Assembly: GCA_017549565.1 (NCBI GenBank)
Contig: JAFYUI010000021.1
Location: 1-56,217 of the forward strand
Direction: 5' to 3'
Length of the DNA: 56,217 nt
Origin: Clostridia bacterium
GTDB taxonomy: Bacteria > Bacillota > Clostridia > Oscillospirales > Acutalibacteraceae
The notes under the pieces are model-generated. The model searched no databases. It was not told the origin of the DNA and saw nothing but the letters and a program-made list of their open reading frames with translations. Below, one piece after another: positions 15,571-33,493 of this stretch (the first letter of the stretch is position 1; each line of letters begins with the position of its first letter). The position numbers and the translations under genes were made by a program.

Positions 15571-15600
15571 AAAAGCTTTCGGTTTTCACCGAAAGCTTTT
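15571..15600 (-). terminator. Terminator of the long rex-hdr-frd operon (bidirectional)
   Basis: AAAAGCTTTCGG (15571-15582) and CCGAAAGCTTTT (15589-15600) form a 12-bp stem with A/T tracts on both sides. It lies 10 bp after the transporter stop at 15610. Confidence 0.85.
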
Positions 15601-15609
15601 TTAATTTAA

Positions 15610-16869
15610 TTAAAACAATATTACAAGGAACTGTGAAACTAAAACAACTGCAATAAGAGCAATTGGATAGGTCGCTGCATAAGCTGCTGCAACATCCTCT
15701 GTACCTGCAACACCGATAAGTGTGCCAAGCGCGGGGGTAGAAGTCATACCGCCGGTAAGCGAACCCAAGTTGTTGAGAAGGCTTAATTTTAACACATATT
15801 TTGCAAATAAGAAGCCAAGTATCATAGGTACAACAGTCATTACAACACCGTAAACGAAATACATTGGGTCAAAGTTTGCAATAAATTCAGCACCGCCGGG
15901 GATACCTGCGCCAACCAAGAACAATACAAGACCTAATTCACGGAATAGCTTTAAGGTACTTTGTGCAGGCATAATGCTAATTGGACCAATTTTGCCAAAG
16001 TGACCTAAAATCAAACTCATTAAAAGACAACCGCCTGTTGCAGTTAACGAAAAGCAAGTACCCGAAAGGCCGCTTGAAGACAACGGAATTTTAATATTAC
16101 CGATAATTACGCCCAAAATAGCCGCTAATGCAAAGCCCGCAACACCCATATGGTCGATTTCAAAGAGCTTTTTAGTGGCCTTCTTCTCTTCTTTTTCAGA
16201 CTTAATAACCAATTTTGCGCGTTCTTCTTCCATATTTGCTTTAGAAAGCTTAGGAATAAGCTGAACGAACAATACAACGCCTACAACACCGAAGATGTAA
16301 GAAATACCGTGGCCAACAGACACTAAGCCCTCATATTCAGCAGCAACTGTTGCTTTTGCAGCAGAGAATGCAGGGGTTGATGTAAGTGAGCCCGAAAGAA
16401 GACCAACAATCATAGCAACGAAGCCGTCCTGCTCCTTAATAGTTGCACCGTAACCGAACAATTCGCCCGCATAGATACAGCCAACTGCCGCAAGACCACC
16501 TGCCAGTATTATAATTAAGCCCAACAATACATATGATTTAAAATTCTTTTTAAAATTGCCAAAGAATTTTGGACCCGCAATGTAACCAACCGAAGTAACG
16601 AATAAAACAAGACCTAATCCTTCGATTAATTTCATTGCAGTTTTATAGTCATAAGCTTTTGCAGATAAAGCGAATACCAAACCGTCGCTTGTCATACTGA
16701 AGCATAATGCACCAACAAGTAACGCAATAATAAACACACCTGCATCGCCAAGAGACACACCCTTGACGGTAATTCTACCCAAAGCATAGCCCACAAGTAA
16801 AACACCGAAAACCACAAATAAAAGGGTGTAAATATCGTTAATGGAGATTACTCCGCCAAAAAATTTCAT
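15610..16869 (-). CDS. AspT/YidE-type membrane carrier
   Basis: This is a 419-residue polytopic protein with about 10-11 hydrophobic helices in two halves around a charged central loop (about residues 205-235). Both halves share the signature seen as GSLTSTPAFSAA (about 158) and GGMTSTPALGTL (about 375), the repeated motif of the aspartate:alanine exchanger (AAE) family. The TrkA_C domains of longer YidE/YbjL proteins are absent. It is the last gene of the fumarate-reductase operon, 12 bp after frdA. That makes a C4-dicarboxylate or amino-acid exchange (for example succinate out, aspartate/malate/fumarate in) the obvious guess, untested. It starts at ATG 16869 behind AAGGAGG. Confidence 0.78.
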   Translation of the reverse strand: MKFFGGVISINDIYTLLFVVFGVLLVGYALGRITVKGVSLGDAGVFIIALLVGALCFSMTSDGLVFALSAKAYDYKTAMKLIEGLGLVLFVTSVGYIAGPKFFGNFKKNFKSYVLLGLIIILAGGLAAVGCIYAGELFGYGATIKEQDGFVAMIVGLLSGSLTSTPAFSAAKATVAAEYEGLVSVGHGISYIFGVVGVVLFVQLIPKLSKANMEEERAKLVIKSEKEEKKATKKLFEIDHMGVAGFALAAILGVIIGNIKIPLSSSGLSGTCFSLTATGGCLLMSLILGHFGKIGPISIMPAQSTLKLFRELGLVLFLVGAGIPGGAEFIANFDPMYFVYGVVMTVVPMILGFLFAKYVLKLSLLNNLGSLTGGMTSTPALGTLIGVAGTEDVAAAYAATYPIALIAVVLVSQFLVILF

Positions 16870-16881
16870 GAAGTACCCTCC

Positions 16882-18501
16882 TTAAAAATCCTTCTGCTTT
16901 GTATAGTTAGGAAGAAGCTTAGGAGAAGCCTTATCGGTCTTGATGCCTGCATCAGCCATTTCTTTCTTAAAGCTTTCAACGTGGTCAAGGTTAAGCTTAT
17001 CGCTAACGGTTGTATTCTTAGCAACTGCAGCAGCGTTTATACCAGCGTTACGACCGAATACGATAATATCCAAAAGTGAGTTACCCATAAGGCGATTTTC
17101 ACCGTGGATACCACCAACAGCTTCACCTGCAACAAAAAGGTTTTCAACATCAGACATACCATTGTCGGCAATCTTGATACCGCCGTTTTGATAGTGAAGT
17201 GTGGGATAAATAAGGATTGGTTGCTTACGCATATCAATGCCATATTTAAGGTACATACGCATCATAGCGGGAATTCGCTTTTCAATAGTACCTTCACCGT
17301 GAATTTTATCAATCATTGGTGAGTCAAGCCAAACACCCTGACCGCCGTTAAAGGTGTCAATACCCTTACCCTTGCGACATTCTCTGATAACAGTTGAAGC
17401 GCAAACATCGCGGGTTTCAAGCGGATACATAAATGCTTCACCGTCGCAGTTTATAAGCTGAGCACCGATAGAGCGAACCTTTTCGGTAACAAGTGCACCA
17501 AAGATTTGTGAAGGATAAGCAGCACCTGTTGGGTGATATTGCAAGGTATAAGCATAAAGCAAGGGTGCGCCTGCGCGGTAAGCCAAAACAAGACCGTCAG
17601 CAGTAGCGCCATAGTGGTTAGAGGTTGGGAAGCCCTGATAGTGCATACGACCCGCACCACCTGTTGCTATAATAACAGTTTTAGCGCGTGCGATAAGGAT
17701 TTCCTTAGTTTCCATATTCATTAAAACAGCACCGGCTGCCTTACCGTTTTCATCCTTAATGATTTCAATAGCAGAGGTGAAATCAACAACGGGGATTTGA
17801 CGATTTTGAACCTCGTCACGCAAAACACGCATAATTTCAGCACCCGAATAGTCCTTACAAGCGTGCATACGTTTACGAGAAGTACCACCACCATGGGTGG
17901 TAACCATTGTACCGTCAGCTTCTTTATCGAACATAACGCCCAAATCATTAAGCCATTTAATGCAAATTGGGGCATCGTTAACAAGCTTGTAAACGAGCTC
18001 GGGCACGTTTTTAAAGTGACCGCCACCCATAACGTCAAGATAATGCTGTGCTGGGCTGTCGTTTGGCTTATCAGCTGCTTGAATACCGCCTTCGGCCATC
18101 ATTGTGTTGGCATCACCATGGCGAAGCTTTGTTACTATCATAACATTAGCGCCGTTTTCGTTAGCCATAATAGCAGCCGCAGAACCAGCACCGCCACCAC
18201 CGATAACAAGCACATCTACATCGTAATCAATCTTAGTAAGGTCGATATCAGCAGGGTTAATTCTTGGGTTTGCCTGTAAGGTTTCAGCCAATTCAAGCGG
18301 TACTTTTTCACCCTTGTTAGGACCGATTTTAAGCTCGGCAAACTGCGATTTTATGTGGTCGGGATGGTTCTCAAGTAAAACCTGGTCCTTTTCTTCGGCA
18401 GTCATTCGTCTGGGATGATTACCTGCAAGAACCGCTTTAAGACGTTCTTCACGGGTAGCTTCTACCCTTTTAATTGATTCTAATTGTTCTTTAGTATACA
18501 T
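16882..18501 (-). CDS. frdA: Soluble fumarate reductase flavoprotein subunit
   Basis: This 539-residue protein has an FAD Rossmann motif VIGGGGAGSAAA (about residues 99-110), the HGGGTSRKRMHACKDYSG segment around the flavin and capping domain, EKVRSIGAQLIN and ETRDVCAS with the catalytic Arg region, HYQNGGI with the substrate His (about 437), and NRLMGNSLLDIIVFGR. It is odd in two ways: about 95 residues precede the FAD motif, where FrdA normally has ~10, and the usual C-terminal helical domain is mostly missing. No membrane anchor subunits (FrdC/D) occur, so the enzyme is predicted to be cytosolic, like the thiol:fumarate reductase TfrA of methanogens. It would reduce fumarate to succinate with electrons from FrdB. 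Confidence 0.85.
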   Translation of the reverse strand: MYTKEQLESIKRVEATREERLKAVLAGNHPRRMTAEEKDQVLLENHPDHIKSQFAELKIGPNKGEKVPLELAETLQANPRINPADIDLTKIDYDVDVLVIGGGGAGSAAAIMANENGANVMIVTKLRHGDANTMMAEGGIQAADKPNDSPAQHYLDVMGGGHFKNVPELVYKLVNDAPICIKWLNDLGVMFDKEADGTMVTTHGGGTSRKRMHACKDYSGAEIMRVLRDEVQNRQIPVVDFTSAIEIIKDENGKAAGAVLMNMETKEILIARAKTVIIATGGAGRMHYQGFPTSNHYGATADGLVLAYRAGAPLLYAYTLQYHPTGAAYPSQIFGALVTEKVRSIGAQLINCDGEAFMYPLETRDVCASTVIRECRKGKGIDTFNGGQGVWLDSPMIDKIHGEGTIEKRIPAMMRMYLKYGIDMRKQPILIYPTLHYQNGGIKIADNGMSDVENLFVAGEAVGGIHGENRLMGNSLLDIIVFGRNAGINAAAVAKNTTVSDKLNLDHVESFKKEMADAGIKTDKASPKLLPNYTKQKDF

Positions 18502-18515
18502 ATTATCGCACCTCC

Positions 18516-19190
18516 TTATTTCTCAAAATCACGATTATTATACATAGCTTTAAGTTCTTCGGCAGTTTTCTTCATAATATCCTGAAGGTCTGCCTCACAA
18601 CCGCCGTTTTCGATTTCAGCAACACGCTCTAAAAGGTGTTGTGTTTCGGGAGCAAGATACTTACCGTTTAAGCGTCTTGCCAGTAACCCAACCTGAGGAT
18701 GAGTAATACCTGCGGGGCAACGAGAAGAACAAACACCGCACATTACACAGTCAAAAGATTCTTCAGCGCACTTTTCAAAATCACCGCGTTGTGCATAAGC
18801 AATGTACTGCATAACATTAAGCTCTTGTGTACATGCCTTTGTACAAGCATTACAACCGATACAAGCATAAACCTCGGGGTAAAGCTGCATCATAATTTGC
18901 TCAGAAGGTTTAACCTTTTCAATATCGTATGGTTGTTTAACAAGTGGGAAGAAAGGAAGAGTAGCAATATACATATTGTCCTCTACCTTTGTTTGACAAG
19001 CAAGGCAAGTTTTAAGTTCTTGCTGACCTTTAATGCGGTAAATTGTTGCACAAGCACCGCAGAAACCGCAACGGCAACCAACACCACGAACAAGCTGATA
19101 ACCTGCATATTCCATGGCATTCATAATAGTAAGACTTGCGGGAACTTCGTATTTTTTACCATAAAGGTAAATATTTACCATATTTTCCAT
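18516..19190 (-). CDS. frdB: Fumarate reductase iron-sulfur subunit
   Basis: I start it at ATG 19190, eight bases after AAAGGAG; the frame extends upstream to 19307 inside the previous gene. The 224-residue protein has a plant-type [2Fe-2S] site (CRCGFCGAC, then CLAC, about residues 40-72) and two [4Fe-4S]/[3Fe-4S]-type motifs CIGCNACTKACT (about 114) and CVMCGVCSSRCP (about 150). This is the FrdB/TfrB N-terminal architecture. The C-terminal CCG domains of methanogen TfrB are absent but occur as the separate HdrB encoded upstream. It should pass electrons to FrdA. Confidence 0.85.
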   Translation of the reverse strand: MENMVNIYLYGKKYEVPASLTIMNAMEYAGYQLVRGVGCRCGFCGACATIYRIKGQQELKTCLACQTKVEDNMYIATLPFFPLVKQPYDIEKVKPSEQIMMQLYPEVYACIGCNACTKACTQELNVMQYIAYAQRGDFEKCAEESFDCVMCGVCSSRCPAGITHPQVGLLARRLNGKYLAPETQHLLERVAEIENGGCEADLQDIMKKTAEELKAMYNNRDFEK

Positions 19191-19203
19191 TATTTTTTCT
19201 CCT

Positions 19204-20037
19204 TTAATACTCGCTTGGAAGTTCTTCCAATTCATCACAGCGGAAAACCGGACCGTCTTTGCAAACATATTTTGCGCCAACATTACATCTGCCGCATTTG
19301 CCGACACCGCACTTCATACGAAGTTCAAGTGTGGTGTAAACATTGGTTTTATCAAAGCCAATTTCACAAAGACCGTCAAGCGTAAACTTAATCATAATGG
19401 GTGGGCCACATAAAACAGCCACCTTGTTGGTGTCAAAGCCAAGCTCCTTAACAAAGGTAGGAACAAAGCCAACATGACCGTCCCAACCTTCTTGCGGGTT
19501 GTCAATGGTTAAATGAACATTAACACCGTCGTCGGTTGCCCATTCTTCAATGATTTCCTTATAGTCAAGAAGGTCATCCTTACTGCGTGAGCCGTAAACG
19601 ATATCAATTTTACCGTAACGGTCACGGTAGTGACGACAGTAGTTGATTACCGAGCGAAGAGGTGCTAAACCAACACCGCCCGCAATAAACAAAAGGTCTT
19701 TTCCTGCAAATACATCATCTACAGGGAACGGTTTTCCATAAGGTCCGCGAATAGTAATTTGCTGACCGGGTTCTGCTTGATGAAGCCAATCGGTCACACA
19801 ACCGCATTTTTTAATGGAAAATTCCATAAATTCTTCGTTTGTTGGTGAAGAAGTAATAGAAAACATTGCTTCACCCACACCCGGAACTGAAAGCATAGCG
19901 CATTGACCTGGTTTGTGGTCAAATGCCTTTTTACCATCGGGTGTTACCACACGAAAGGTTTTAATATCGGGTGTATCGATGCGAACATCTGTAATGACAC
20001 CAATTTTAGGAATTAAAGTATCGTTAATATTATTCAC
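19204..20037 (-). CDS. FAD/NAD(P)-binding oxidoreductase, FloxA-like
   Basis: The true start is GTG 20037, seven bases after GGAGG, overlapping the stop of the previous gene as GTGA; the longer frame to 20115 is overlap with that gene. The ~277-residue protein is a ferredoxin-NADP reductase-type flavoprotein: FAD binding around GQCAMLSVPGVGEAMFS (about residues 55-71), IRGPYGKPFP, NAD binding FIAGGVGLAPLR (about 115-126), and a C-terminal [2Fe-2S] CGVGKCGRC...C. This matches AsrB/PyrK and FloxA. It is the predicted NAD(P)H entry site of the HdrABC-Flox complex. Confidence 0.83.
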   Translation of the reverse strand: MNNINDTLIPKIGVITDVRIDTPDIKTFRVVTPDGKKAFDHKPGQCAMLSVPGVGEAMFSITSSPTNEEFMEFSIKKCGCVTDWLHQAEPGQQITIRGPYGKPFPVDDVFAGKDLLFIAGGVGLAPLRSVINYCRHYRDRYGKIDIVYGSRSKDDLLDYKEIIEEWATDDGVNVHLTIDNPQEGWDGHVGFVPTFVKELGFDTNKVAVLCGPPIMIKFTLDGLCEIGFDKTNVYTTLELRMKCGVGKCGRCNVGAKYVCKDGPVFRCDELEELPSEY

Positions 20038-21059
20038 CTTTTTTTTCCTCCAATCTTTTTCATTACTTTTACGATATTCATTGATATCGGACATTTTACA
20101 AGACAGCGACCGCAACCAACACAGCTAAACAAACCGTCGTTATTTTCGGGATAGTACACAAGCTTGTGCATAAAGCGTTGACGGAAGCGTTCCTTTTGTG
20201 TTAAACGGTTGTTACCGTGTGCCATTTTTGTAAAGTCGGAATACATACAAGAATCCCAACATCTGAAACGAATAACACCGTTGCCTGTATTAAAATCTTT
20301 AATATCATAACACTGACAGGTTGGGCACACAAAGGTACAAGTACCGCAACCAAGACAAGCCCCGGATAATTCATCCCATTCGGGTGCATTGAAAAGTTCA
20401 GCCGTTTTACCGCCACCGAAAGCATCGGTTTTAAGGTCTTTAAGCGGAAGCTTATTCATAATGGCATCAATTTTTGCTTTTTGTTCAACTACAGCGGTAT
20501 CATCACACTCTTCAGTTAAATCGATAAGCTTTTCTAAAAGGTCCTTACCCTTTTGGGTGTTTGCCTCAAAGAAGATGTCAGTATCATTTTTCCAAGCTGA
20601 AATATCGCCTGTGGGCTCAGCAGGGTTTATGCCAAAGGTTTTACAAAAACAAGTTTCAGACGGCTTACCGCACGCCAAAGAAATAATAACACCGTGGCTG
20701 CGTCTTAAAGCATAAAAGCTGTCAACCGGCTCGCTTAAAAATACGCGGTCAAGGATATCAAAGCTTTTAACATCACAAGCTCTTACACCAAAGATTACAA
20801 AATCATCAAGTGCTTTTCTTGTATCAATAACTTCAATATTTTTGCCTTCGGTCTTAAATGCCATTAAATCTTCAGTTTGGGGGAAGAAGAAATCCTTAGG
20901 GCTTCTAACAGTATTCAGAACATTGCTCCAAACACTTCCCTCTTCCCACTTTTTATAAGTGGCACTGCCGTCGGTTTGGTCTTGGGGAAGATAAAGCTCG
21001 GCATTTTTGGCAATTTCTTTAAACAAAAGGTTTATTTTATCAAGAGAACATTTACGCAT
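20034..21059 (-). CDS. 4Fe-4S protein, FloxB/AsrA-like
   Basis: It starts at ATG 21059, inside the last codons of the preceding gene and behind a GGGGGG run. It has about 341 residues. The N-terminal two thirds match the AsrA-like fold, with VIFGVRACDVKSFDILDRVF (about residues 77-96). Two [4Fe-4S] motifs follow: CLGCGTCTFVCPTCQCYD (about 235-252) and CVGCGRCLVKCP near the C-terminus. In Desulfovibrio floxABCD such proteins carry electrons from FloxA to the Hdr part. The gene is a paralogue of the next gene upstream, which points to an old duplication. Confidence 0.78.
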   Translation of the reverse strand: MRKCSLDKINLLFKEIAKNAELYLPQDQTDGSATYKKWEEGSVWSNVLNTVRSPKDFFFPQTEDLMAFKTEGKNIEVIDTRKALDDFVIFGVRACDVKSFDILDRVFLSEPVDSFYALRRSHGVIISLACGKPSETCFCKTFGINPAEPTGDISAWKNDTDIFFEANTQKGKDLLEKLIDLTEECDDTAVVEQKAKIDAIMNKLPLKDLKTDAFGGGKTAELFNAPEWDELSGACLGCGTCTFVCPTCQCYDIKDFNTGNGVIRFRCWDSCMYSDFTKMAHGNNRLTQKERFRQRFMHKLVYYPENNDGLFSCVGCGRCLVKCPISMNIVKVMKKIGGKKR

Positions 21060-22050
21060 TGTTATCCCCCCTATCAAAAACTTCACCTGGTTCTAAATCT
21101 TCGGTGGTATAGTCAACAAGCGGTGCGCGACCGCCAACCTCAGCACCTGCTTGATATTCACCATAAAAATCGTTCATATCCTTAATGAACTTGCGGTTAA
21201 GGAGGTGTAAAGGAATATTTTGTGGGCACACGCGTGAGCATTCGCCGCAGTCAGTACAACGGCCTGCAACATGGTATGCACGAATAATGTGGAATAATTT
21301 TTCTTCAAACTCGTTTGCGGGTGATTTATTTTCAACACCCGAATTTGGGTTATCAAAAACGCACTTTTCGCAGGTACAAGCGGGGCAAGCGTCACGACAA
21401 GCGTTGCAACGAATACAACGAGAAAGTTCGTTTTGCCAGAAAGCAAATCTTTCATCGGCTGTCATTGCTTCAAGGCGGGCAACCTCGTCAAAGCGGTTTG
21501 ACTCAATAACTTCGCCCTCTTCACCCATAAGCTCATCGTAAGCCACATGCTTTTTGCTCTTGCAGTTAATGCAGCGTTCGGCCAAAACATCCTTTGCAGC
21601 AATAACAACGGGCTCATCAGCATACAATGTGGTAACAACTAACTTGTCACCGTCCGAGCCGATTGCAGCAATACCGTCGCCGCTGATTGCCTTAACCTTT
21701 GCAATGTCAGCCATACCCTCGCAAGGAATACCAACAGCATAAACCTTTTCACGGTCAAAGCGATGCTCGGTTAAAAGCTGGTTAAAGCTGTATGTATCAC
21801 AGGGCTTTAAGAAAACAAGAATTTTACCTTCAATTTTATCAGTTTTCTTAACAAGATATTTTGAAAAGTTTGCACCGCAGAAATCGTTAAAAACAAAGCC
21901 GTTTTTAAGCTCTTCCACTGTGCTGAAAACGGTGGGAGTTACATCATAGTCAAATTCACCTATGCCCCAACCTAAAACAGCACTGACAGTACCATTTTCG
22001 AGGAGTTCTGATGCTTTTTGTATAAGCTGTTCACGGGTTATTTTTTGCAT
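21052..22050 (-). CDS. 4Fe-4S protein, FloxC/AsrA-like
   Basis: This 332-residue protein starts at ATG 22050 behind GGAGG. It shares a layout with the next gene: an N-terminal domain with KILVFLKPCDTYSFNQLL, then Cys-rich motifs CINCKSK, CIRCNACRDACPACTCEKC (about residues 213-231) and CTDCGECSRVCP (about 262). The middle motif has two extra Cys compared with a simple ferredoxin, so it may carry an additional cluster. It is the predicted electron relay of the Flox module. It overlaps mvhD/floxD by 13 bp and floxB by 8 bp, typical of stoichiometric complex subunits. Confidence 0.78.
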   Translation of the reverse strand: MQKITREQLIQKASELLENGTVSAVLGWGIGEFDYDVTPTVFSTVEELKNGFVFNDFCGANFSKYLVKKTDKIEGKILVFLKPCDTYSFNQLLTEHRFDREKVYAVGIPCEGMADIAKVKAISGDGIAAIGSDGDKLVVTTLYADEPVVIAAKDVLAERCINCKSKKHVAYDELMGEEGEVIESNRFDEVARLEAMTADERFAFWQNELSRCIRCNACRDACPACTCEKCVFDNPNSGVENKSPANEFEEKLFHIIRAYHVAGRCTDCGECSRVCPQNIPLHLLNRKFIKDMNDFYGEYQAGAEVGGRAPLVDYTTEDLEPGEVFDRGDNNA

Positions 22051-22472
22051 CTTAAATCCTCCAATCTCTTGTTTTGACCAAGTGCAGTTACAGTCTGAAC
22101 AAAGTCGTTCATTGTTGCGGCAAATTTTGCGCCTTCAGCAGCCGACACCCATTCAACACGGGTGCGTTCCTTTTCAATGCCCAAAAAATCGAGCATTGAG
22201 AAAAGGGCAGCCATACGGCGACGGGTAAAGTAGTTACCCGAAGTATAGTGACAGTCACCAGGGTGGCAACCGCAAATAATTACACCATCAGCGCCACGCT
22301 GAAATGCGCGTAAAATAAACATTGGGTTTACACGGCAAGAGCAAGGCACACGGATAATTTTAACATCAGCAGGATAAGCCAAGCGGTTATTACCCGCAAG
22401 GTCAGCACCCGCATAAGAACACCAGTTGCAGCAAAATGCAACAATTAAGGGCTTATATTCATTTACTTGCAT
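22038..22472 (-). CDS. MvhD/FloxD-type iron-sulfur subunit
   Basis: This 144-residue protein is recognisable by FCCNWCSYAGADLAG (about residues 13-27), RVPCSCRVNP (about 41-50) and CGCHPGDCHY (about 67-76), the conserved Cys set of MvhD, which holds a [2Fe-2S] cluster and docks the electron donor on HdrA. Here the donor would be the Flox flavoprotein, since no MvhAG [NiFe] hydrogenase is present. It overlaps hdrA by 10 bp. Confidence 0.9.
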   Translation of the reverse strand: MQVNEYKPLIVAFCCNWCSYAGADLAGNNRLAYPADVKIIRVPCSCRVNPMFILRAFQRGADGVIICGCHPGDCHYTSGNYFTRRRMAALFSMLDFLGIEKERTRVEWVSAAEGAKFAATMNDFVQTVTALGQNKRLEDLRCKK

Positions 22473-24457: not shown

Positions 24458-24472
24458 TTGTCTTTTCCTCCT

Positions 24473-24862
24473 TTACTTTGTATATTTTCTGAAAGCGCTG
24501 ACAAGCAACTGTTGTGGTGTGTCTTCATCAACGATTTCGGGGACCATATCTGCTGTTAAATGATTTGCGCCTTGTTTTCTTATAGCGGTTAAGCGAACGG
24601 CCTCAACCACCTTTGCGGGCTGAACGCCACGTGGGCAGCGGTCGATACAAGCAAAGCAAGACAAACATTTATATAATGATTTGGAATTTAAAAGTGGTTC
24701 AATGTCACCACATTCCACCATATTTACAAATTGGTGGGGATGATATTCCATCTCGTCGTATGCGGGACAAGTGGCTGAACACTTACCGCAGCGCATACAC
24801 TTGCTGGGGTTAACACCACTTATGCGAATGATTTCTTCTTGAAGATACTTGTTGTTATGCAT
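24473..24862 (-). CDS. hdrC: Heterodisulfide reductase subunit C
   Basis: This 129-residue protein has two [4Fe-4S] motifs, CMRCGKCSATCP (about residues 22-33) and CLSCFACIDRCP (about 67-78), in the usual HdrC spacing. It relays electrons from HdrA to HdrB. It starts at ATG 24862, behind AAGGAGG, and overlaps hdrB by 8 bp. The order is hdrB-hdrC-hdrA in the direction of transcription. Confidence 0.9.
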   Translation of the reverse strand: MHNNKYLQEEIIRISGVNPSKCMRCGKCSATCPAYDEMEYHPHQFVNMVECGDIEPLLNSKSLYKCLSCFACIDRCPRGVQPAKVVEAVRLTAIRKQGANHLTADMVPEIVDEDTPQQLLVSAFRKYTK

Positions 24863-25646: not shown

Positions 25647-25661
25647 CAAATTACCTCCGAC

Positions 25662-27038: not shown

Positions 27039-27055
27039 TATGTAACAACCTTTCA

Positions 27056-27997
27056 TTAGATTTCGATACTGTTGATAATTTCTTTAAGGCAATCAGCACT
27101 GTGGTGTAATGCCTTGATTTCTTCTTCGTTAAGGGGTAAAAGCACCTTACTGTGAGCGCCCTTGTTACCAACAACATTAAGTAAGCTAAGGCAAACATCA
27201 TTGATACCGTATTCACCGTGAAGCATGGTAGAAACGGTCATTGTGGTGTCGATACCACTAAGTAAGCACTTACAAATGTGGCAAACCGACATTGAAACCG
27301 CATAGAAGGTTGCACCCTTACGCTGAATAACGCGTGCACCCGACTTACGAACATAATTTTCAACCTCTTCGCAATCAAGTTCGGGGTAATCATTTGAATT
27401 TTGTAAAGCGTTTCTGTAATCTTCAATCGGAACATTGGAGATATTAGCAATAGACCACGGAACAAAAGCCGAGTCGCCATGCTCACCCAAAACATAAGCG
27501 TGTACATTCTTTTGGTTTACACCATAATATTCAGAAACGCGGGCGCGTAAGCGAGCGGTATCCAAAATAGTACCCGAACCGATAATTCTTTCTTCAGGAA
27601 TGCCTGAAATTTTGTGGAAAACATAGGTAAGTACATCAACAGGATTACTTACAATTATATATGTAGCGTTAGGTGCGTGCGGAACAACCTCTTTTGCAAC
27701 CTGCTTTAACACATTTACATTTGTTTGAGCTAAATCAAGTCTTGACTGACCTGCTTTTCTTGGTAAACCGCAGGTGATAATAACAATATCAGAATCCTTT
27801 GCATCAACATAAGAGCCGGCATAGATATTGGCAGGATTACAGAAAGGAACACCTTGTCTGATATCTAATGCTTCGCCTAAAGATTTTTCTTGATTAACGT
27901 CAATCATAACAATTTCAGATGCGATACCCATAACAGTTAATGTGTAAGAGATTGTAGAGCCAACACTACCCGAGCCGATTACAGTAATTTTATTCAT
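27056..27997 (-). CDS. mdh: Malate dehydrogenase of the LDH/MDH superfamily
   Basis: This 313-residue NAD-dependent 2-hydroxyacid dehydrogenase has GSGSVGSTISYTL (NAD site), ITCGLPRKAGQSRLDLAQTN (substrate loop, about residues 75-94), IIVSNPVDVLTYV and GEHGDSAFVPWS with the catalytic His. General similarity points to lactate dehydrogenase, but the loop residue that decides specificity is Arg (PRK, where LDH has Gln in NQK). Arg here is the classic malate/oxaloacetate determinant (the Q102R switch). With fumarase and fumarate reductase next to it, malate dehydrogenase is the better call, though side activity on lactate is not excluded. Confidence 0.8.
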   Translation of the reverse strand: MNKITVIGSGSVGSTISYTLTVMGIASEIVMIDVNQEKSLGEALDIRQGVPFCNPANIYAGSYVDAKDSDIVIITCGLPRKAGQSRLDLAQTNVNVLKQVAKEVVPHAPNATYIIVSNPVDVLTYVFHKISGIPEERIIGSGTILDTARLRARVSEYYGVNQKNVHAYVLGEHGDSAFVPWSIANISNVPIEDYRNALQNSNDYPELDCEEVENYVRKSGARVIQRKGATFYAVSMSVCHICKCLLSGIDTTMTVSTMLHGEYGINDVCLSLLNVVGNKGAHSKVLLPLNEEEIKALHHSADCLKEIINSIEI

Positions 27998-28036
27998 AAT
28001 AATTCCCCTTTTAAAAAGTTTTTAAATTTTTGTTTT

Positions 28037-29464
28037 TTATTTTAAAACAGCAACTGCGTTGCTGATTGTTTTTTCTAATGCTTCTCTGCCGTATTTGTCA
28101 ACTTCGGCTTTGTTCTTTTCGCCGTGTGTAAGGCACCCTGCACCGCCGATGCAACCGCCCACACAAGCCATACCTTCAATAAAGTTGGCATCAAGCACAT
28201 TTTTGCTCTTTTTAAGAAGCGCCACACGGCACTCCTCAATTCCGTCACAAGAAACCGCCTTTAATTCAAAGTCGATATTTTGTTCTTCAAGACCTTGTTT
28301 AACGGCATCTGTAAGACCGCCGCTGCGAGCAAAAATTCTGCCATAATATGATGCATTTTCAAGAACATCTTCCGAAAGAGTTGTAATATCCATATCCTTG
28401 CTGTCAAAAAGCGCTTGAAGTTCTTCAAAAGTCATAACCGCATCAATATAAGGTTTAACACTTTCAAGCTTTGCTTCCGCCTTTTTAGCAGTGCAAGGGC
28501 CAATGAATACAACCTTTGCATTTTTGTCAGTGCTCTTAATATATTTTGCAAGCATTGCCATTGGTGAAAGGTTGTGCGACACAAACGGCTTCATATCAGG
28601 AAATGCCGAATCAATATACTGCACAAATGCAGGACAACAGGAGCTTGTTAAAAAGCCCTTTTCGGCAAGTTCTTTCGATTCTGCCTGTGCCACCATATCA
28701 GCACCGAGAGCAGCTTCAATTACAGTATAAAAGCCAAGCTCTTTAAGACCGGTAATAACCTGACCTAATTTTGCATAAACAAACTGACTTGAAATTGAAG
28801 GCGCCACCATAGCGTAAACCCTATATTTTTGATTGTTTTCACTTTTTTTGATGATATCAATAACATCCAAAATATATGATTTATCGGTTATAGCGCCAAA
28901 CGGACATTGATATACACAAGCACCACATTGAATACATTTGTTATTATCAATAGCCGCAGCATTGTTATCTTTTATAGAAATTGCCTTTACTTTGCAAGCA
29001 ATTTGACAAGGTCGTTTGCGATTGATAATAGCGGCATAGGGACAAACCTTTGCACAAAGACCACATTCAACACATTTTGATTTATCAATATGTGCTACAT
29101 GGTTGTGGTCAAAGGAGATTGCTCCCCTTTTACAAACATCTTCACAACGGTGTGCCAAACAGCCGCGGCAAGAAGTGGTAACCTCATAACCTGCTGCAGG
29201 ACATTCATCACAAGCAATGTCGATAACCTCGATAACATTTGGGTTTTCCTTATTGCCGCCCATAGCGATTTTAACACGCTTACCTAAAATTGCACGTTCT
29301 TTGTAAACACAACATCGCATTGTTGGTGTTTTACCGGGTACAATCATTTCAGGAATGTTCATCACATTATCAAGCAATGTGTCATTCCAGGCATGTCGTG
29401 CAACTTCACGAAGCACTTTATACTTTAAGTGCTGTACCTTTGTATCGAATTTTCTTATTCCCAT
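28037..29464 (-). CDS. Monomeric [FeFe] hydrogenase (group B-like)
   Basis: This 475-residue protein has an N-terminal Cys-rich region and three ferredoxin-like motifs (CRGCLAHRCEDVC, CVECGLCAKVCP about 133, CIQCGACVYQCP about 178), then the H-cluster domain: L1 SSCCPAF (about residue 275), L2 IGPCTAKKAE (about 324) and L3 EGMACVGGCIGG (about 434). All H-cluster Cys are present. SSCCPAF in place of TSCCPGW, with no NuoG-type extension, resembles group B enzymes. It would evolve H2 from reduced ferredoxin or oxidise H2. The maturases HydE/F/G are not in the window. Confidence 0.85.
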   Translation of the reverse strand: MGIRKFDTKVQHLKYKVLREVARHAWNDTLLDNVMNIPEMIVPGKTPTMRCCVYKERAILGKRVKIAMGGNKENPNVIEVIDIACDECPAAGYEVTTSCRGCLAHRCEDVCKRGAISFDHNHVAHIDKSKCVECGLCAKVCPYAAIINRKRPCQIACKVKAISIKDNNAAAIDNNKCIQCGACVYQCPFGAITDKSYILDVIDIIKKSENNQKYRVYAMVAPSISSQFVYAKLGQVITGLKELGFYTVIEAALGADMVAQAESKELAEKGFLTSSCCPAFVQYIDSAFPDMKPFVSHNLSPMAMLAKYIKSTDKNAKVVFIGPCTAKKAEAKLESVKPYIDAVMTFEELQALFDSKDMDITTLSEDVLENASYYGRIFARSGGLTDAVKQGLEEQNIDFELKAVSCDGIEECRVALLKKSKNVLDANFIEGMACVGGCIGGAGCLTHGEKNKAEVDKYGREALEKTISNAVAVLK

Positions 29465-29475
29465 AAATTTTCTCC

Positions 29476-30648
29476 TTAGAAATAACTAACCTTTATCTTT
29501 TTGCCCATTTTCCTAAGGCATTTAGACAGTTCATCAACCAAATTCATTTTTATATTAAAATTGATGGGCAAATCAGGATTTTGATGGGCGGGGTTAACCG
29601 CTCTGCCCACATAAAAGTTAATATCAGTTGCTTCTTCAAACAACAAACGACAAATTAAAGATGCACCGTCGCGATTAAAGCTCCAATGCTCATAATGCTT
29701 GTTGTCGCCGAGATAATCTTTAGCATATTCAAGCACACGGTTTACAGTAATAACACCTTCGGTTACAAGGTCAACACCATCAATAGTAGCAATTGGCGGA
29801 ATATCGCTTTTTTCAAAATTAAGACTTGCTTTAAGCGGCCGTCTCAAAAACTTTGCCGCAATAGATGAGGTTGTTCCACCGCAAATGATGTGTTTACCTT
29901 CTTTTGAAAAGAAAAGTGACATCATACGGTCGGCATCATCACGGTTAGAGGGCGGGCCGAAAAGCATATTCATAGGTTCGCGTTTTCTGATACGAACAAC
30001 ACATGCAGTTGCATCATCCCCCGGCTCGTGACCGTAAAGCTTATCGCATTCATCTACAAGCATTGTGGACAAGGTTTTTGCAGTGTAACCTGCGTGAGAA
30101 AGCGATTCCATAAAGCTTGCAATTTCTTCACGCTTCCACCCAAAGTTATAGGCAGTACCGATACCCGCGTGTGGACAGCCATCGCTCATAGCAACGAAAA
30201 TATCATTTTCCTGAAGCTTGATAACCGATTTATAAATCTTTTTGCCACCAATATTCATTTCTGTTTTTGGATAATCCCAAACCTGTTCATCACGAATAAT
30301 AATGGCGTGAGGGTTATCGTACTGTATAAGCTCAGCCACTTGGTTATTCTTTAAATGAATAATGGTAAATGTCGAGTATGCTACACCTCGTACCGAACAT
30401 ACAGGCAGGGTTGCAGCAATAGTTTCAACACATTCCTCCAAGCTTAACCCTTCGGCTAACATTGTTGAAATAATTTTAGAAGTAAGGGTTGAAAGAATAC
30501 TTGCTTTTACGCCGCTTCCAAGACCGTCCGACAGCACGATAACGGTGGAATCATCACTTGGCTCGACCACATCAACATGGTCGCCGCAAAGCTGCTCGCC
30601 GTAATGATTTATACTTTTATACCCAATATCAGCACATAAATCATTCAT
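29476..30648 (-). CDS. SpoIIE/PP2C-type phosphatase with extra C-terminal domain
   Basis: This 390-residue protein has a PP2C/SpoIIE catalytic domain in the first ~220 residues: VIVLSDGLGSGVKA (metal Asp/Gly, about 37-50), DIFVAMSDGCPHAG (about 149-162) and GDDATACVV (about 209-217). The C-terminal ~170 residues are of unknown type. It overlaps the sensory hydrogenase gene by 8 bp and precedes the catalytic hydrogenase by 11 bp. This association of a group C hydrogenase with a Ser/Thr phosphatase is known from clostridia and is thought to transmit an H2 or redox signal. Its target protein is unknown. Confidence 0.82.
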   Translation of the reverse strand: MNDLCADIGYKSINHYGEQLCGDHVDVVEPSDDSTVIVLSDGLGSGVKASILSTLTSKIISTMLAEGLSLEECVETIAATLPVCSVRGVAYSTFTIIHLKNNQVAELIQYDNPHAIIIRDEQVWDYPKTEMNIGGKKIYKSVIKLQENDIFVAMSDGCPHAGIGTAYNFGWKREEIASFMESLSHAGYTAKTLSTMLVDECDKLYGHEPGDDATACVVRIRKREPMNMLFGPPSNRDDADRMMSLFFSKEGKHIICGGTTSSIAAKFLRRPLKASLNFEKSDIPPIATIDGVDLVTEGVITVNRVLEYAKDYLGDNKHYEHWSFNRDGASLICRLLFEEATDINFYVGRAVNPAHQNPDLPINFNIKMNLVDELSKCLRKMGKKIKVSYF

Positions 30649-32320
30649 CTTGGATAGACTCCTTTAATTTGGCAAGAGCAATTTTAGTTTCAGCCGCAGT
30701 TTCACCTAAAAGTGATGCAATTTCCTGTACGATACGCATTTGCTTGTCAACAACCTTATCGGCAACCTCAATAGTTTGACGGCTGATGTTTTCTTTCTTT
30801 TCGCGTTCGTTCTGTTCATCAGTAACATCACGCATAATAGAAATAAGTAGATGTGAATCCTTATCGTAAACCACCGATTGTTCAACAAAACGCTTGTATT
30901 CTGCTAAATACACACGCTCGTCACGGACATTTCTGCCTGTTCGCAAAACATTTAAAAATACAGTTGGGTCAAGAATACGAATAACCTGGTCGCCAAGTAC
31001 ATCACTTGCCGAGCGAATGTTCATCATTCTTCTTGCCGCATTATTTATTTGCTGTACCTCAAGGTTTTCGTTTAAAACGATAAGTCCGTTTGGTGAATTA
31101 TTAACAATAGTATCAGAAAAGCTTTCTGCCTTGTCTTTAAGGAAAGGAAGACACATTGAAATTTCCGCCTTACCGTGAATAATAGCCACCGCTTTTTCAC
31201 GGCAGGTATTATATCCGCAAGAGCCACAGTTAAGCTCCTGCGAGGGCTTAAATTTACCCATTTGGCGAAGAATATTTTGTACTTCCATATCTGACGGCAT
31301 TTGATAACGCTGTTCGATATATTCAAAATTCTTTTGAAGCTCAGAAGTTTTGGGTTGTGAAACCACGAAATCTTTTTTGCCGGCATAACCCGAAATGGTA
31401 ATATAATCTCTTACAGTTTCAGTATGATGATATTTTTCCATTACAGGACCGCCGACACAGCTGCCAACACAGGCCGACATTTCAATAAAACATTTGTGAA
31501 TGTTGCCGCTTATAATATCTTTAAGTGCTGCAATGCAGTTTTCCACACCATCAAGTGCAAGATATGTGTATCCGGGCATATCCTGTGCCATTGTTTTAAG
31601 CACACCGCCTGTTGTGGGGAAAAATCTTGCGCGTGAACATTCGTTATTATCACTTTCAGCTTCAAGTTTAATTCCCGCTTCTTCCAACCATTTGGTCAAT
31701 TCTTCAAATGTAAGTACAGCGTCAACAATACCTTTGTAATGTTCTGCCTCGTCTTTTTTAGCAACACAAGGGCCAATAAAAACAGTCTTTACATTTGGAA
31801 TTCTTTTTTTAATATCCATACAGTGCGCCTGCATTGGCGACACAACATCAGCCAAAAATTCAAGCGCTTGGGGATAATGCTTTTGAATAAGCAAATTAAT
31901 AGAATGGCAACAAGAAGAAATTACAACATCTCGTTCATCCTCTTTAAGCATTCTTTCATATTCGTTTTTAACAATAGTTGCGCCAATTGCAGTTTCTTCT
32001 ACATCGTAAAAGCCAAGCTGCTTTAACGCATTTCTCATAGAATTGATACCTGCACCGCCATAGTTTGCAACAAAAGACGGAGCAAGACTTACAACAACAG
32101 GGTCACCGCTTTGCAAAAGCACCTTTACTTTTTCGGTTTCATCAACTATTTGTTTTGCATCCTGCGGACATACAACAAAACACTGACCGCACAAAATACA
32201 CTCGTTACCAATAATGTGCGCCTGATTTCCCGAAAAGCGAATAGCTTTTACAGGGCAGTTTCGAATGCATTTATAACAGTTCTTACAATTTGATTTTTTA
32301 AGTGTTAAACAATTCGGCAT
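30641..32320 (-). CDS. Sensory [FeFe]-hydrogenase homologue with PAS domain (group C-like)
   Basis: This 559-residue protein has two N-terminal ferredoxin motifs (CYKCIRNCP, CILCGQCFVVCP), then an H-cluster domain with altered loops: L1 ISSCCHSI (canonical TSCCPxW), L2 IGPCVAKKDE, L3 EMSACVGSCVGG. A further Fe-S module follows (NCGSCGYNTCREKA, about residue 365), then a PAS domain (about 405-505) and a C-terminal coiled coil. The order H-domain, Fe-S, PAS is that of HydS-type sensors. Signal output is probably through the overlapping SpoIIE-type phosphatase. The His in L1 replaces the conserved Pro, so catalytic turnover may be low. Confidence 0.85.
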   Translation of the reverse strand: MPNCLTLKKSNCKNCYKCIRNCPVKAIRFSGNQAHIIGNECILCGQCFVVCPQDAKQIVDETEKVKVLLQSGDPVVVSLAPSFVANYGGAGINSMRNALKQLGFYDVEETAIGATIVKNEYERMLKEDERDVVISSCCHSINLLIQKHYPQALEFLADVVSPMQAHCMDIKKRIPNVKTVFIGPCVAKKDEAEHYKGIVDAVLTFEELTKWLEEAGIKLEAESDNNECSRARFFPTTGGVLKTMAQDMPGYTYLALDGVENCIAALKDIISGNIHKCFIEMSACVGSCVGGPVMEKYHHTETVRDYITISGYAGKKDFVVSQPKTSELQKNFEYIEQRYQMPSDMEVQNILRQMGKFKPSQELNCGSCGYNTCREKAVAIIHGKAEISMCLPFLKDKAESFSDTIVNNSPNGLIVLNENLEVQQINNAARRMMNIRSASDVLGDQVIRILDPTVFLNVLRTGRNVRDERVYLAEYKRFVEQSVVYDKDSHLLISIMRDVTDEQNEREKKENISRQTIEVADKVVDKQMRIVQEIASLLGETAAETKIALAKLKESIQDE

Positions 32321-32326
32321 AATTTT

Positions 32327-32581
32327 TTACACCTTTCCCAATTTAGAAAGCACATGCTGGCTGAAAAATTCTTTAAAATTTTCTTTCGTAACGCCAACAT
32401 GAATATCATCATCTACCTGAACCGTAACACCAAGACGGTTACACTTTCCAATACAAAAGCTACCTGTAAGGGTGATATCATTTTCAAGATGATGTTCTTC
32501 AACGGCTTTTTGTAAAAGCTCAACAATTTCAGGTGAGCCCTTTAAATGACAAGAGCTTCCCACACAAATTTGAATAATCAT
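32327..32581 (-). CDS. Thioredoxin-like [2Fe-2S] ferredoxin (second copy)
   Basis: This 84-residue protein has CVGSSCHLKGS at the N-terminus and GSFCIGKCNRLGV in the middle, which are the four cluster Cys (CX4C and CX3C) of the NuoE/HydC-type thioredoxin-like ferredoxin. It lies 4 bp downstream of a paralogue and 6 bp upstream of the sensory hydrogenase gene. It probably exchanges electrons with one of the hydrogenase-type proteins. Confidence 0.85.
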   Translation of the reverse strand: MIIQICVGSSCHLKGSPEIVELLQKAVEEHHLENDITLTGSFCIGKCNRLGVTVQVDDDIHVGVTKENFKEFFSQHVLSKLGKV

Positions 32582-32585
32582 TTAA

Positions 32586-32825
32586 TTATACCTTTGCCTT
32601 TACATTTTCTTGGAAGAAATCAAAAGCATTGTCAGGTGTTACTGAATAAAACTCATCATCAACAGTTACACAAACCCCCTGCTGACATTTTCCCATACAA
32701 AAAGTACCGCCAAGCTCAACCTTATCGCCAAGATTATTTTCAGCAATAAGATTTTGAAGTTGCTCAACCACTTGACGCGAACCTTTTACATGACAAGAAC
32801 TACCGATACATACTGTGATTTTCAT
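32586..32825 (-). CDS. Thioredoxin-like [2Fe-2S] ferredoxin (first copy)
   Basis: This 79-residue paralogue of the following gene has CIGSSCHVKGS and GGTFCMGKCQQGV with the same four Cys. It starts at ATG 32825 behind TTGGAGG, 35 bp after rex. Tandem copies suggest two partners or a heterodimer. Confidence 0.85.
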   Translation of the reverse strand: MKITVCIGSSCHVKGSRQVVEQLQNLIAENNLGDKVELGGTFCMGKCQQGVCVTVDDEFYSVTPDNAFDFFQENVKAKV

Positions 32826-32860
32826 TGTTATTCCTCCAAAGTTTATGTATGTTTTGTTAT

Positions 32861-33493
32861 TTAAAATGCTTGATGCCGAGATAATTGATTTCTTAAATGT
32901 GCCAAGGATAGTGCTAAATTTTCGTTTTGAAGCAGAACACCGTCAGGCACCTGCAATTTACAGGGAGCAAAGTTCCAAATAGCAGTTATTCCGCTTTTCA
33001 CCATTTGGTCACATACCTGCTGGGCCGAGCCCTCACCAACCGTTATAATGCCAAGTCGAATTTCGTGTTGCTGGCAAAAACTTTCAAAGTGGTTCATTGG
33101 TAAAATAACAGTTTCGGCATCGGGATTTAATACTTTGTGGTTTGAATCAAAGGCCGCGGTGATTTTAACACCAAAATGCTGAAAACCGTCATACTGTAAA
33201 AGCGCCCTGCCAAGTCGGCCGGCACCTACCAACACTGCATTGGTTAATTTATTATAGCCAAGGCAGTCCTCAAGCTGCTGTATAAGCACTTCGGTTTCAT
33301 ACCCAAGGCGCGGTCTTCCTGCACCGCTTATCATTGCTAAATCTTTTCTTACCTGAACTTCGCCAAGCTTTAATTCCTTTGAAATGGTTGTGGCCGATAT
33401 AAAGGGAACATTTTCGAGGGACAATTCTTTAAGATAATTCAGATATCTTGGTACCCTGCCCAAGGTAGCTTTGGATATTGAACTTTTTTCCAT
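32861..33493 (-). CDS. rex: Redox-sensing transcriptional repressor Rex
   Basis: This 210-residue protein has a winged-helix N-terminus (about residues 1-80, with ISKELKLGEVQVRKDLAMIS) and a Rossmann domain with VGAGRLGRALLQY (about 88-100) for NAD(H). Rex leaves its operators when NADH/NAD+ rises. Being the first gene of the operon, it probably regulates itself and everything downstream, so the fermentative redox genes would be induced by NADH. I could not find a clear TTGTTAA-type Rex box in its leader. The usual C-terminal domain-swap helix is present. Confidence 0.93.
   Translation of the reverse strand: MEKSSISKATLGRVPRYLNYLKELSLENVPFISATTISKELKLGEVQVRKDLAMISGAGRPRLGYETEVLIQQLEDCLGYNKLTNAVLVGAGRLGRALLQYDGFQHFGVKITAAFDSNHKVLNPDAETVILPMNHFESFCQQHEIRLGIITVGEGSAQQVCDQMVKSGITAIWNFAPCKLQVPDGVLLQNENLALSLAHLRNQLSRHQAF

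Follow-up and report, generated by a model that had tools for sequence, protein, structure and literature searches.

In anaerobes, reduction of fumarate is generally presented as a membrane-bound process linked to quinones. The window studied here, a 56,217-nucleotide stretch of a Clostridia genome, carries an operon in which fumarate reductase genes adjoin an HdrABC-FloxABCD module, raising the question of which high-potential acceptor this module serves. In Desulfovibrio, the acceptor of the seven-subunit HdrABC-FloxABCD complex (also FlxABCD-HdrABC), which has the same domains as the proteins encoded here, is DsrC. Here, we present comparative evidence that gives good support to fumarate as the predicted acceptor, and we put at roughly 70% the probability that the operon is a Rex-headed succinate route in which FrdAB forms the high-potential head of an HdrABC-FloxABCD bifurcating system, with ferredoxin reoxidized by Rnf and/or hydrogenases. 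Its features are:

32861..33493, minus strand: rex, NADH/NAD+-sensing repressor (NCBIfam PRK05472 models over cut-off)
32586..32825, minus strand: thioredoxin-like [2Fe-2S] ferredoxin a, NuoE C-terminal half type (PF01257, 35.6 bits)
32327..32581, minus strand: thioredoxin-like [2Fe-2S] ferredoxin b (NuoE-family models, below cut-off)
30641..32320, minus strand: [FeFe]-hydrogenase-domain protein with FeS domain (PF02906, 171 bits; PF04060)
29476..30648, minus strand: SpoIIE/PP2C-type phosphatase (TIGR02865, below cut-off)
28037..29464, minus strand: monomeric group-B [FeFe] hydrogenase (TIGR04105, 565.9 bits, cut-off 450)
27056..27997, minus strand: LDH-fold dehydrogenase, likely malate dehydrogenase (LDH models over cut-off; Arg at specificity position)
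25662..27056, minus strand: fumC, class II fumarase (TIGR00979, 714.9 bits, cut-off 664.75)
24855..25649, minus strand: hdrB, two CCG domains (PF02754)
24473..24862, minus strand: hdrC (TIGR03290, below cut-off)
22463..24457, minus strand: hdrA, bifurcating-type flavin/Fe-S subunit (HdrA2, 776 bits, cut-off 1100; PDB 5odc HdrA, E 3.4e-203)
22038..22472, minus strand: mvhD/floxD (PF02662, 184 bits)
21052..22050, minus strand: floxC, Fe-S protein (Fer4 dicluster domains; place in cluster)
20034..21059, minus strand: floxB, Fe-S protein, sulfhydrogenase beta/AsrA-like (PF17179, 103 bits; ShyB/HydB models below cut-off)
19204..20043 (start codon provisional), minus strand: floxA, FAD/NAD(P)-binding, [2Fe-2S] (PF00175, PF10418, PF00970)
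18516..19190, minus strand: frdB, [2Fe-2S] domain and two ferredoxin-type [4Fe-4S] motifs (domain models)
16882..18501, minus strand: frdA, fumarate reductase flavoprotein, non-covalent FAD type (PF00890, 224 bits; active-site residues conserved)
15610..16869, minus strand: AspT/YidE-type transporter (PF06826, 174.8 bits)
15570..15601, minus strand: terminator-like hairpin (perfect 14-pair stem, directly 3' of the last stop codon)

On the ORF map, 18 genes run uninterrupted from rex (33493) to the transporter (15610), in the order rex, hydrogenase-type genes, mdh-like gene, fumC, hdrBCA, floxDCBA, frdBA and AspT-type transporter, with intergenic distances of -13 to +39 bp. The original prediction of 17 consecutive minus-strand genes with gaps under 40 bp holds for continuity and spacing (maximum 39 bp), but the count is 18 with rex included. 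The strong terminator that it placed at the operon end is borne out by the hairpin. Its single front promoter fares less well: the candidate at 33652-33624 matches 10 of 12 consensus positions plus TG, but is no evidence by itself, because our scan found 51 sites of this quality against 44.6 +/- 6.1 expected. No Rex-operator match above background was found upstream of rex with the consensi applied. Pfam and NCBIfam agree with the earlier calls for HdrA, HdrB, HdrC, MvhD/FloxD, FloxA-C, FrdA-like, FrdB-like, FumC and Rex, as well as for the group-B hydrogenase, the second Fe-hydrogenase-domain protein, the phosphatase and the two ferredoxins, yet the NCBIfam matches of HdrA, HdrB, HdrC, FrdA, FrdB and Flox lie under the curated cut-offs.

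The module is complete and contiguous, comprising HdrA, HdrB with two CCG domains, HdrC, MvhD/FloxD, the FAD/NAD-binding FloxA, FloxB and FloxC, and it holds the sole CCG and MvhD proteins found genome-wide. From its sequence, it is predicted to bifurcate, reducing ferredoxin at the expense of NADH. As the original prediction had stated for this locus, no DsrC was found (PF04358 in 0 of 8 genomes, the window's included), which, like the adjoining fumarate reductase genes, distinguishes this locus from the Desulfovibrio system, and no other Hdr acceptor or carrier gene was recognized in the operon. All 10 cluster Cys of HdrB are invariant in 49/49 aligned rows and both noncubane-cluster Cys sets are kept, so that HdrB may still act on a disulfide substrate.

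Does FrdAB have the features of a soluble fumarate reductase? FrdA, with an N-terminal extension of ~92 residues, keeps the residues aligned to the SdhA/FrdA catalytic residues in 77/77 rows (one Thr is Ser in a single row), and Asn replaces the flavin-linking His in 77/77. In FrdB, 12 cluster Cys are invariant in 74/74 rows, and the second motif keeps its fourth Cys in all 74, the [4Fe-4S] type being read from this motif. The FrdB of quinol:fumarate reductase and SDH, by contrast, has a distal [3Fe-4S] cluster. We rejected that class, since no such cluster is indicated, Asn occupies the covalent-FAD His position, no membrane anchor gene adjoins frdB or was recognized in the operon, and UbiA was found in 0 of 8 genomes, the window's included (positive controls 14/14). 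Methanogen TfrAB likewise couples an HdrB-type protein to a soluble enzyme of FrdA/FrdB type; however, TfrB is one chain including the HdrB part, whereas here frdB is without it, frdB and hdrB are separate genes matching separate halves of the TfrB profile (positions 18-92 and 262-487), and FrdA carries its additional N-terminal residues. TfrAB was rejected on scores (FrdA 342.8 bits against a TfrA cut-off of 718; FrdB 37.0 against 385 for TfrB), as were 8-methylmenaquinol:fumarate reductase, SdhABE (FrdA 220.9 against 1100 for SdhA; HdrB 159.7 against 500 for SdhE), and L-aspartate oxidase, NadB, for FrdA (TIGR00551, 270.6 bits against 452.75). No Frd-Hdr/Flox fusion occurs in 2096 stop-to-stop frames of at least 300 codons.

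The conserved hdrBCA-flox-frdAB synteny sought on the original prediction's suggestion was found: the single order hdrBCA-floxDCBA-frdBA on one strand is present in 52/52 testable named loci (those where the sequence ahead of frdA spans 7.2 kb or more, out of 80 fetched) and in 16/20 loci of the family. Among 295 genomes of the order, taken as one common sample, 52 encode FrdA and HdrA, 3 FrdA only, 2 HdrA only and 238 neither (Fisher p 1.3e-51, genomes being counted as independent and kinship ignored). In four more distant genomes of two other families the nine genes are permuted to frdBA-hdrBCA-floxDCBA. Before frdB in two of these (G428, G475) lies a gene that best matches aspartate ammonia-lyase, and the G428 locus continues with an asparaginase-like gene and a Dcu C4-dicarboxylate transporter; these neighbors point to fumarate. 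The consistent separation of frdAB from hdr-flox that would have spoken against the original prediction is not seen within the order, but FrdAB does also occur on its own. Two genomes that are each 99% complete, G319 (of the same genus) and G047, have FrdAB but lack MvhD and do not appear in the HdrA matches at E 1e-100, so FrdAB can be kept without the bifurcating module; G062 (81% complete), searched for MvhD only, likewise has FrdAB without it. In a quick tree, G319 FrdA nests with support in the hdr-flox clade, which suggests later loss of hdr-flox, and FrdA of G047 and G062 falls within this clade on long branches of unsure placement. Of the 39 distant loci sampled, 19 gave no hdr or flox gene near FrdAB (4 of the 19 with 0.1-3.2 kb upstream), and in four distant loci hdrCB alone adjoins frdBA. 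At some Hdr-less loci of other families, the neighbors of FrdAB look by eye like pyruvate carboxylase, or like malic enzyme together with fumarase.

How could these proteins work together? Oxaloacetate would be converted to malate by the mdh-like enzyme, malate to fumarate by the fumC product and fumarate to succinate by FrdAB, and succinate would leave the cell by the AspT-type carrier, a candidate succinate exporter. NADH would donate at FloxA, and FloxB, FloxC and FloxD would relay electrons to the HdrA flavin, where each pair would be split: one electron would go to ferredoxin and its partner, by way of HdrC/HdrB, to FrdB and on to the FAD of FrdA. The net reaction would be 2 NADH + fumarate + Fd(ox) -> 2 NAD+ + succinate + Fd(red), and with the Fd potential set at -500 to -400 mV its computed driving force is -33 to -53 kJ for each fumarate. 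Rnf, building an ion gradient, and/or hydrogenases would reoxidize ferredoxin. The hydrogenase had been named as ferredoxin sink; the window's genome, however, encodes an rnf cluster and a further [FeFe] hydrogenase with a NuoF-like partner, so ferredoxin need not end as H2, and hydB1 was seen in only 4/80 related loci (a lower bound, flanks being at most 10 kb). Rnf was found in 6 of 8 genomes searched, and RnfD was not found in G007 and G371, both of which carry the hdr-flox-frd block.

The complex had been thought undescribed, but the same gene set and hypothesis are in print (PMC7282089 and its ref. 15; PMC6315080), and the operon is a well-supported further example of an idea already proposed for other bacteria. 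The 'succinate operon' of Pseudoclostridium thermosuccinogenes holds a fumarase, seven Flx-Hdr genes, two Frd genes and a putative succinate transporter, and bifurcation coupling NADH oxidation to ferredoxin and fumarate reduction was proposed for it (Koendjbiharie 2020, PMC7282089; preprint by Koendjbiharie and van Kranenburg 2019, its ref. 15). The present operon has this make-up, as judged by described gene content and locus-tag order (Flx-Hdr genes by locus-tag range), but rex, two thioredoxin-like ferredoxins, two [FeFe]-hydrogenase-type proteins, the phosphatase and the mdh-like gene are joined in front. Its expression is reported to rise ~4-fold under CO2 limitation, with significance not reached by every subunit, and succinate formation nearly ceased under H2, both of which favor the proposal; added Na2S had the effect opposite to that of H2, which counts against it (PMC7282089). 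In 2019, flxABCD-hdrABC interspersed with tfrAB and korABCD was reported in tubeworm symbionts and Thioflavicoccus (PMC6315080; for Endoriftia, PMC11636981), with the same idea of Hdr-Flx delivering electrons directly to a soluble fumarate reductase, but in an autotrophic reductive TCA cycle instead of fermentation, with KorABCD within the hdr genes (PMC6315080). Also counting against the bifurcating reading, the Endoriftia hdr-flx/rTCA cluster is co-expressed with the exception of tfrAB (PMC11636981), the related Moorella HdrABC-MvhD-MetFV complex did not reduce ferredoxin in purified form (PMC8578096), and an HdrABC-FlxABCD has been assigned to sulfite reduction (PMC12887300).

Could the genes be read otherwise? 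With bifurcation unchanged, HdrB might reduce a small disulfide, the resulting dithiol being reoxidized by FrdAB; the two would then act as a split thiol:fumarate reductase linked through a carrier, with no direct Hdr-Frd contact. The invariant HdrB cysteines, the correspondence of frdB and hdrB to the two TfrB halves and the loci with hdrCB alone would suit such a carrier, but with DsrC not found, no other carrier gene recognized in the operon and FrdB without the HdrB-like half of TfrB, we consider it unlikely. Slightly less probable still, FrdAB might be a soluble fumarate reductase in its own right, drawing electrons from ferredoxin, flavodoxin or NADH, and do no more than share the operon with a module whose acceptor is something else. 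G319 and G047, the Hdr-less loci beside carboxylase or malic enzyme genes and the out-of-step tfrAB of Endoriftia (PMC11636981) agree with this, yet it has to contend with linkage in 52/52 loci, near-perfect co-occurrence, permuted linkage in other families, no alternative Hdr acceptor gene recognized in the operon and the later loss to which the G319 FrdA points in the quick tree.

Confurcation, in which succinate and reduced ferredoxin are oxidized together to yield NADH, is very improbable: at standard potentials it would cost 33-53 kJ for each succinate, fumC, the mdh-like gene and the exporter suit reduction, and P. thermosuccinogenes makes succinate as a product (PMC7282089), set against which are the KorAB-like and sucCD-like genes at some Hdr-linked loci.

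With fumarate as acceptor of the bifurcating module, a wider picture may be drawn tentatively, at somewhat less than even odds: a quinone-free, soluble 'fumarate respiration' widespread in gut Clostridia, with HdrABC-FloxABCD-FrdAB as one nine-subunit complex, Rnf (where present) turning ferredoxin into an ion gradient, and FrdAB as an interchangeable head joined by separate lineages to HdrABC-Flox (in two orders), HdrABC-MvhD with a giant HdrA, or HdrCB alone, and sometimes lost again. Should the complex behave as its genes imply, succinate is made in the cytosol of many uncultured Clostridia of gut and rumen, and the energy is kept as reduced ferredoxin for Rnf-driven ATP or H2; the energy and hydrogen balance of fermentation in the gut would then have to be redrawn. 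Because the gene block is conserved so broadly and cleanly, the proposal of 2019, as yet unproven, can be put to a direct test in several lineages.

The predicted malate dehydrogenase is upheld in part. The dehydrogenase passes a cut-off only as L-lactate dehydrogenase (PRK06223 malate dehydrogenase, 277.5 bits against 283 needed), but has Arg at a position that is Gln in chain 4m1q and Arg in chain 1y6j, presumably the site setting malate versus lactate specificity, which makes malate dehydrogenase likely, not proven. By eye, KorAB-like genes were seen at L242 and sucCD-like genes at L256, both Hdr-linked loci of the phylum. The 30641..32320 [FeFe]-hydrogenase-domain protein is probably sensory; no Pfam PAS match was found in it at E 1e-6, and its C-terminal stretch, with a weak PhoR-model match at residues 403-504 (23.8 bits), may be PAS-like.

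The probable succinate operon of the window lies on the minus strand and consists of 18 genes running from 33493 down to 15610, with intergenic gaps of −13 to +39 bp and a 14-pair hairpin at its end. Its genome measures 1.49 Mb in 37 contigs, of which the window is C17, and is rated 96% complete. The genes are, in operon order:

Operon start, minus strand: rex, two thioredoxin-like [2Fe-2S] ferredoxins, hydrogenase-domain protein (possibly sensory), SpoIIE-type phosphatase
Operon middle, minus strand: monomeric group-B [FeFe] hydrogenase, LDH-fold dehydrogenase, fumC, hdrB, hdrC, hdrA, mvhD/floxD
Operon end, minus strand: floxC, floxB, floxA, frdB, frdA, AspT-type transporter

The original prediction of a single operon holds, but it counted 17 genes, and its statement on the promoter needs correction: a scan of the window confirmed no significant promoter for the operon, nor was a Rex operator confirmed upstream of rex, where the best site scored 11/14 versus 12/14 elsewhere in the window, against Rex consensus sequences. 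Frd-Hdr/Flox fusions were not found among 2096 stop-to-stop frames of at least 300 codons. The LDH-fold dehydrogenase carries Arg at its specificity position, which we take to be the site separating malate from lactate enzymes. The same residue is present in PDB 1y6j, and NCBIfam files the protein as a lactate dehydrogenase.

How strictly is frdBA linked to hdr-flox? FrdA of the operon type occurs in 21 of 150 family genomes (E 1e-60; own genome counted), one of which, G032, is a distant match at 37% identity. At order level, FrdA was found in 55 of 295 genomes (E 1e-100; own genome counted) and operon-type HdrA in 54; taking both searches as one and the same sample, 52 genomes hold both. Three have FrdA only: G319, G047 and G340, a genome that is 77% complete and has its frdA at the edge of a contig. 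Two have HdrA only: G241, whose HdrA is at 50% identity, and G285, where the contig breaks off right behind floxD. The full order hdrB-C-A-floxD-C-B-A-frdB-A is present in 16 of the 20 family loci with long flanks; L043 is cut by its contig, L039 and L040 (the latter on a 5.2-kb contig) have no Hdr beside frdBA, and L042, at 37% identity and with a neighbour gene that looks nadC-like by eye, is probably an L-aspartate oxidase and was left aside. In a second batch of 20 loci, 13 show the full order (counting L111, in which frdA is cut) and genome G233 has it split between L103 and L104, each at a contig end. The five that remain are L102 of G319 (without Hdr), L105, which holds the unrelated HdrA of G241, and L106, L107 and L110, all cut by their contigs. 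Among the 80 named loci nearest to the window by identity, the best of at least 564 relatives, the full order is seen in every one of the 52 that have 7.2 kb or more in front of frdA, and also in L149 among the 28 with shorter flanks, the others being cut; the locus sets share source genomes, and the counts are hence not independent. These 80 records are named as Clostridia, Clostridiales, Oscillospiraceae, Ruminococcus, Ruminococcaceae, Lachnospiraceae, Tyzzerella or Firmicutes, plus two Spirochaetales, and many come from ruminant gut, judging by their titles. The expected synteny of frdAB with hdr-flox is thereby borne out in every testable named locus, although G319 and G047 keep FrdAB without HdrA and MvhD.

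All 77 rows keep the FrdA residues that align with the catalytic ones of SdhA/FrdA, save for a Thr replaced by Ser in a single row, and Asn occupies the position of the His of covalent enzymes. Approximately 92 N-terminal residues of FrdA fall outside the SdhA, FrdA and NadB alignments and are common to linked and unlinked members, as the listed alignments start at residues 1–8. Twelve Cys of FrdB are invariant in 74 of 74 rows, arranged as for one [2Fe-2S] and two [4Fe-4S] clusters. Quinone enzymes carry a [3Fe-4S] cluster, against which the fourth Cys of the second FrdB motif argues. UbiA was found in none of eight genomes searched (G000, which is the window's, G319, G047, G062, G007, G371, G135 and G003; controls positive 14/14), making a quinone route unlikely, and DsrC was likewise found in none of the eight (one control, E. 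coli, positive). On these two results we hold a quinol- or DsrC-linked function unlikely. The 10 Cys of HdrB are kept in 49 of 49 rows, so that both noncubane sites look intact, and HdrA aligns over its full length with the solved HdrA of PDB 5odc (E 3.4e-203).

Beyond the observed gene content, order, residues and absences, we infer complex formation by HdrABC-Flox-FrdAB, its bifurcation and its direction: two NADH would reduce one fumarate and one ferredoxin via bifurcation at the HdrA flavin. Ferredoxin potentials lie at −400 to −500 mV, for which the computed driving force is −53 to −33 kJ per fumarate. The potentials of NAD and fumarate are given as −320 mV and +33 mV in an excerpt of PMC5861303. 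Two precedents urge caution, as far as the available passages go: the purified Moorella HdrABC-MvhD-MetFV complex showed no ferredoxin reduction (PMC8578096), and in Endoriftia the hdr-flx cluster is co-expressed, tfrAB being the exception (PMC11636981).

That such a system is undescribed, as the original prediction had it, has to be rejected. The "succinate operon" of P. thermosuccinogenes (PMC7282089) combines genes for fumarase, Flx-Hdr, fumarate reductase and a putative transporter, all of which have counterparts in the operon of the window. Its authors refer to a preprint of theirs from 2019 in which NADH/ferredoxin/fumarate coupling is proposed. They report approximately 4-fold higher expression of that operon when CO2 was limiting, a rise not significant for every subunit, and refer back to an almost complete loss of succinate formation with H2, Na2S having the opposite effect. 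A thiol:fumarate reductase fed directly by Hdr-Flx was proposed in 2019 (PMC6315080), and this kind of model is discussed in PMC11636981. Biochemical proof of Hdr-Flox-coupled fumarate reduction was not found in the literature covered, which includes PMC12887300 and PMC10579422 besides the papers named here and leaves out most subscription papers and all preprints, and the operon of the window is a further example of a proposed system. PMC5861303 cites a 2014 title on Desulfovibrio alaskensis that links fumarate reduction, Hdr-Flox and Rnf. Our analysis adds the scale and strictness of hdrBCA-floxDCBA-frdBA conservation and its permuted counterpart next to Dcu and aspartase-like genes. It further shows that UbiA was not found while most of the genomes searched have Rnf, that FrdAB has modular partners and is kept in some genomes without Hdr, and that the operon of the window is extended by Rex and hydrogenase genes.

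Across the phylum sample, FrdA occurs in 39 of 398 genomes (own included), the others at 50–65% identity; 39 loci were fetched from 38 genomes, G513 being represented twice. A complete Hdr-Flox set is present in five of them, L258 and four with the permuted order frdBA-hdrBCA-floxDCBA, which was read in one stretch in L277 and in two overlapping stretches in the other three; four tree rows labelled "hdrABC_mvhD" in fact hold all Flox genes. The occurrence of both modules in two gene orders argues for a functional bond between them. HdrA and MvhD without FloxA are seen in 11/39 loci and hdrCB alone in 4/39, and no hdr gene was found near FrdA in 19/39, some of which have, by eye, pyruvate carboxylase, malic enzyme plus fumarase, or sucCD beside frdBA. 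In L234 and L238, the gene preceding frdB best matches aspartate ammonia-lyase, with PRK12273 scores of 697.6 and 706.7 bits (cut-off 510, which FumC of the window also just passes at 512.2), TIGR00839 scores just below the cut-off of 681.2 (660.5 and 677.0) and fumC_II scores of 485.4 and 488.4 (cut-off 664.75). Downstream of the cluster, L275, the continuation of L234, holds a gene for a Dcu C4-dicarboxylate transporter, scoring 609.6 bits against a cut-off of 369, and one that is asparaginase-like, at 277.7 bits against a cut-off of 314.3. As aspartase produces fumarate, this separate neighbourhood points to fumarate as the substrate.

Other partners of frdBA were also observed. L249, L252, L267 and L269 carry hdrC-hdrB-frdB-frdA in stretches where neither hdrA nor flox was matched, possibly encoding a split thiol- or membrane-linked fumarate reductase; in L249 the genes adjoin, by eye, TRAP/TAXI-transporter-like genes. 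Giant HdrA-like proteins are encoded near frdBA in L242 (8284-11562, 1092 aa) and L256 (8122-12591, 1489 aa, including a GltD-like NAD(P)-binding part), and may serve as alternative input modules to this fumarate reductase.

A quick FrdA tree of 77 rows, leaving out the short rows L041, L107 and L111, contains one supported group of 39 rows that unites the taxonomic order of the window with the loci from Lachnospiraceae and Spirochaetales and with L259, a further row from the phylum sample. Hdr-flox is present in 31 of these; four of the eight remaining rows are contig cuts (L110, L103, L180, L201) and the others are L102 (G319), L039 (G047), L040 (G062) and L259. The FrdA of G319, a genome of the same genus as the window's, is placed with support beside the linked row L031, while L039, L040 and L259 have long branches and an unsure placement. 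MvhD was not found in G319, G047 or G062, and our reading is that these genomes lost Hdr-Flox and kept FrdAB. In G319 (99% complete), frdBA stands alone at L102 3367-5660, with no MvhD and no HdrA match.

Where might reduced ferredoxin go? RnfD is present in six of the eight genomes; G007 and G371, which have the hdr-flox-frdBA block, gave no match. In the window's genome, CCG and MvhD proteins were found only in the operon, and ATP-PEP carboxykinase (TIGR00224) was not found. Candidate ferredoxin sinks are several: contig C34 holds an rnfCDGEAB-like cluster, whose RnfC and RnfD were assigned from family matches and whose other genes were read from gene order and by eye; C1 encodes an [FeFe] hydrogenase together with a NuoF-like partner; and the operon contributes its group-B hydrogenase. 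A second, stand-alone RnfD-like gene lies on C16 (L280 9881-10999), away from the rnf cluster.

Within the operon, the group-B [FeFe] hydrogenase, hydrogenase-domain protein, SpoIIE-type phosphatase and two thioredoxin-like ferredoxins are grouped at 28037-32825, an arrangement that looks like an H2- or redox-sensing unit; hydB1 occurs in at least four of the 80 best among at least 564 related loci. Beside the operon end, on the plus strand at 14246-15299, two adjoining genes give weak, sub-cut-off matches to the N-terminal and a central part of an spr1629-type repressor/antitoxin model.
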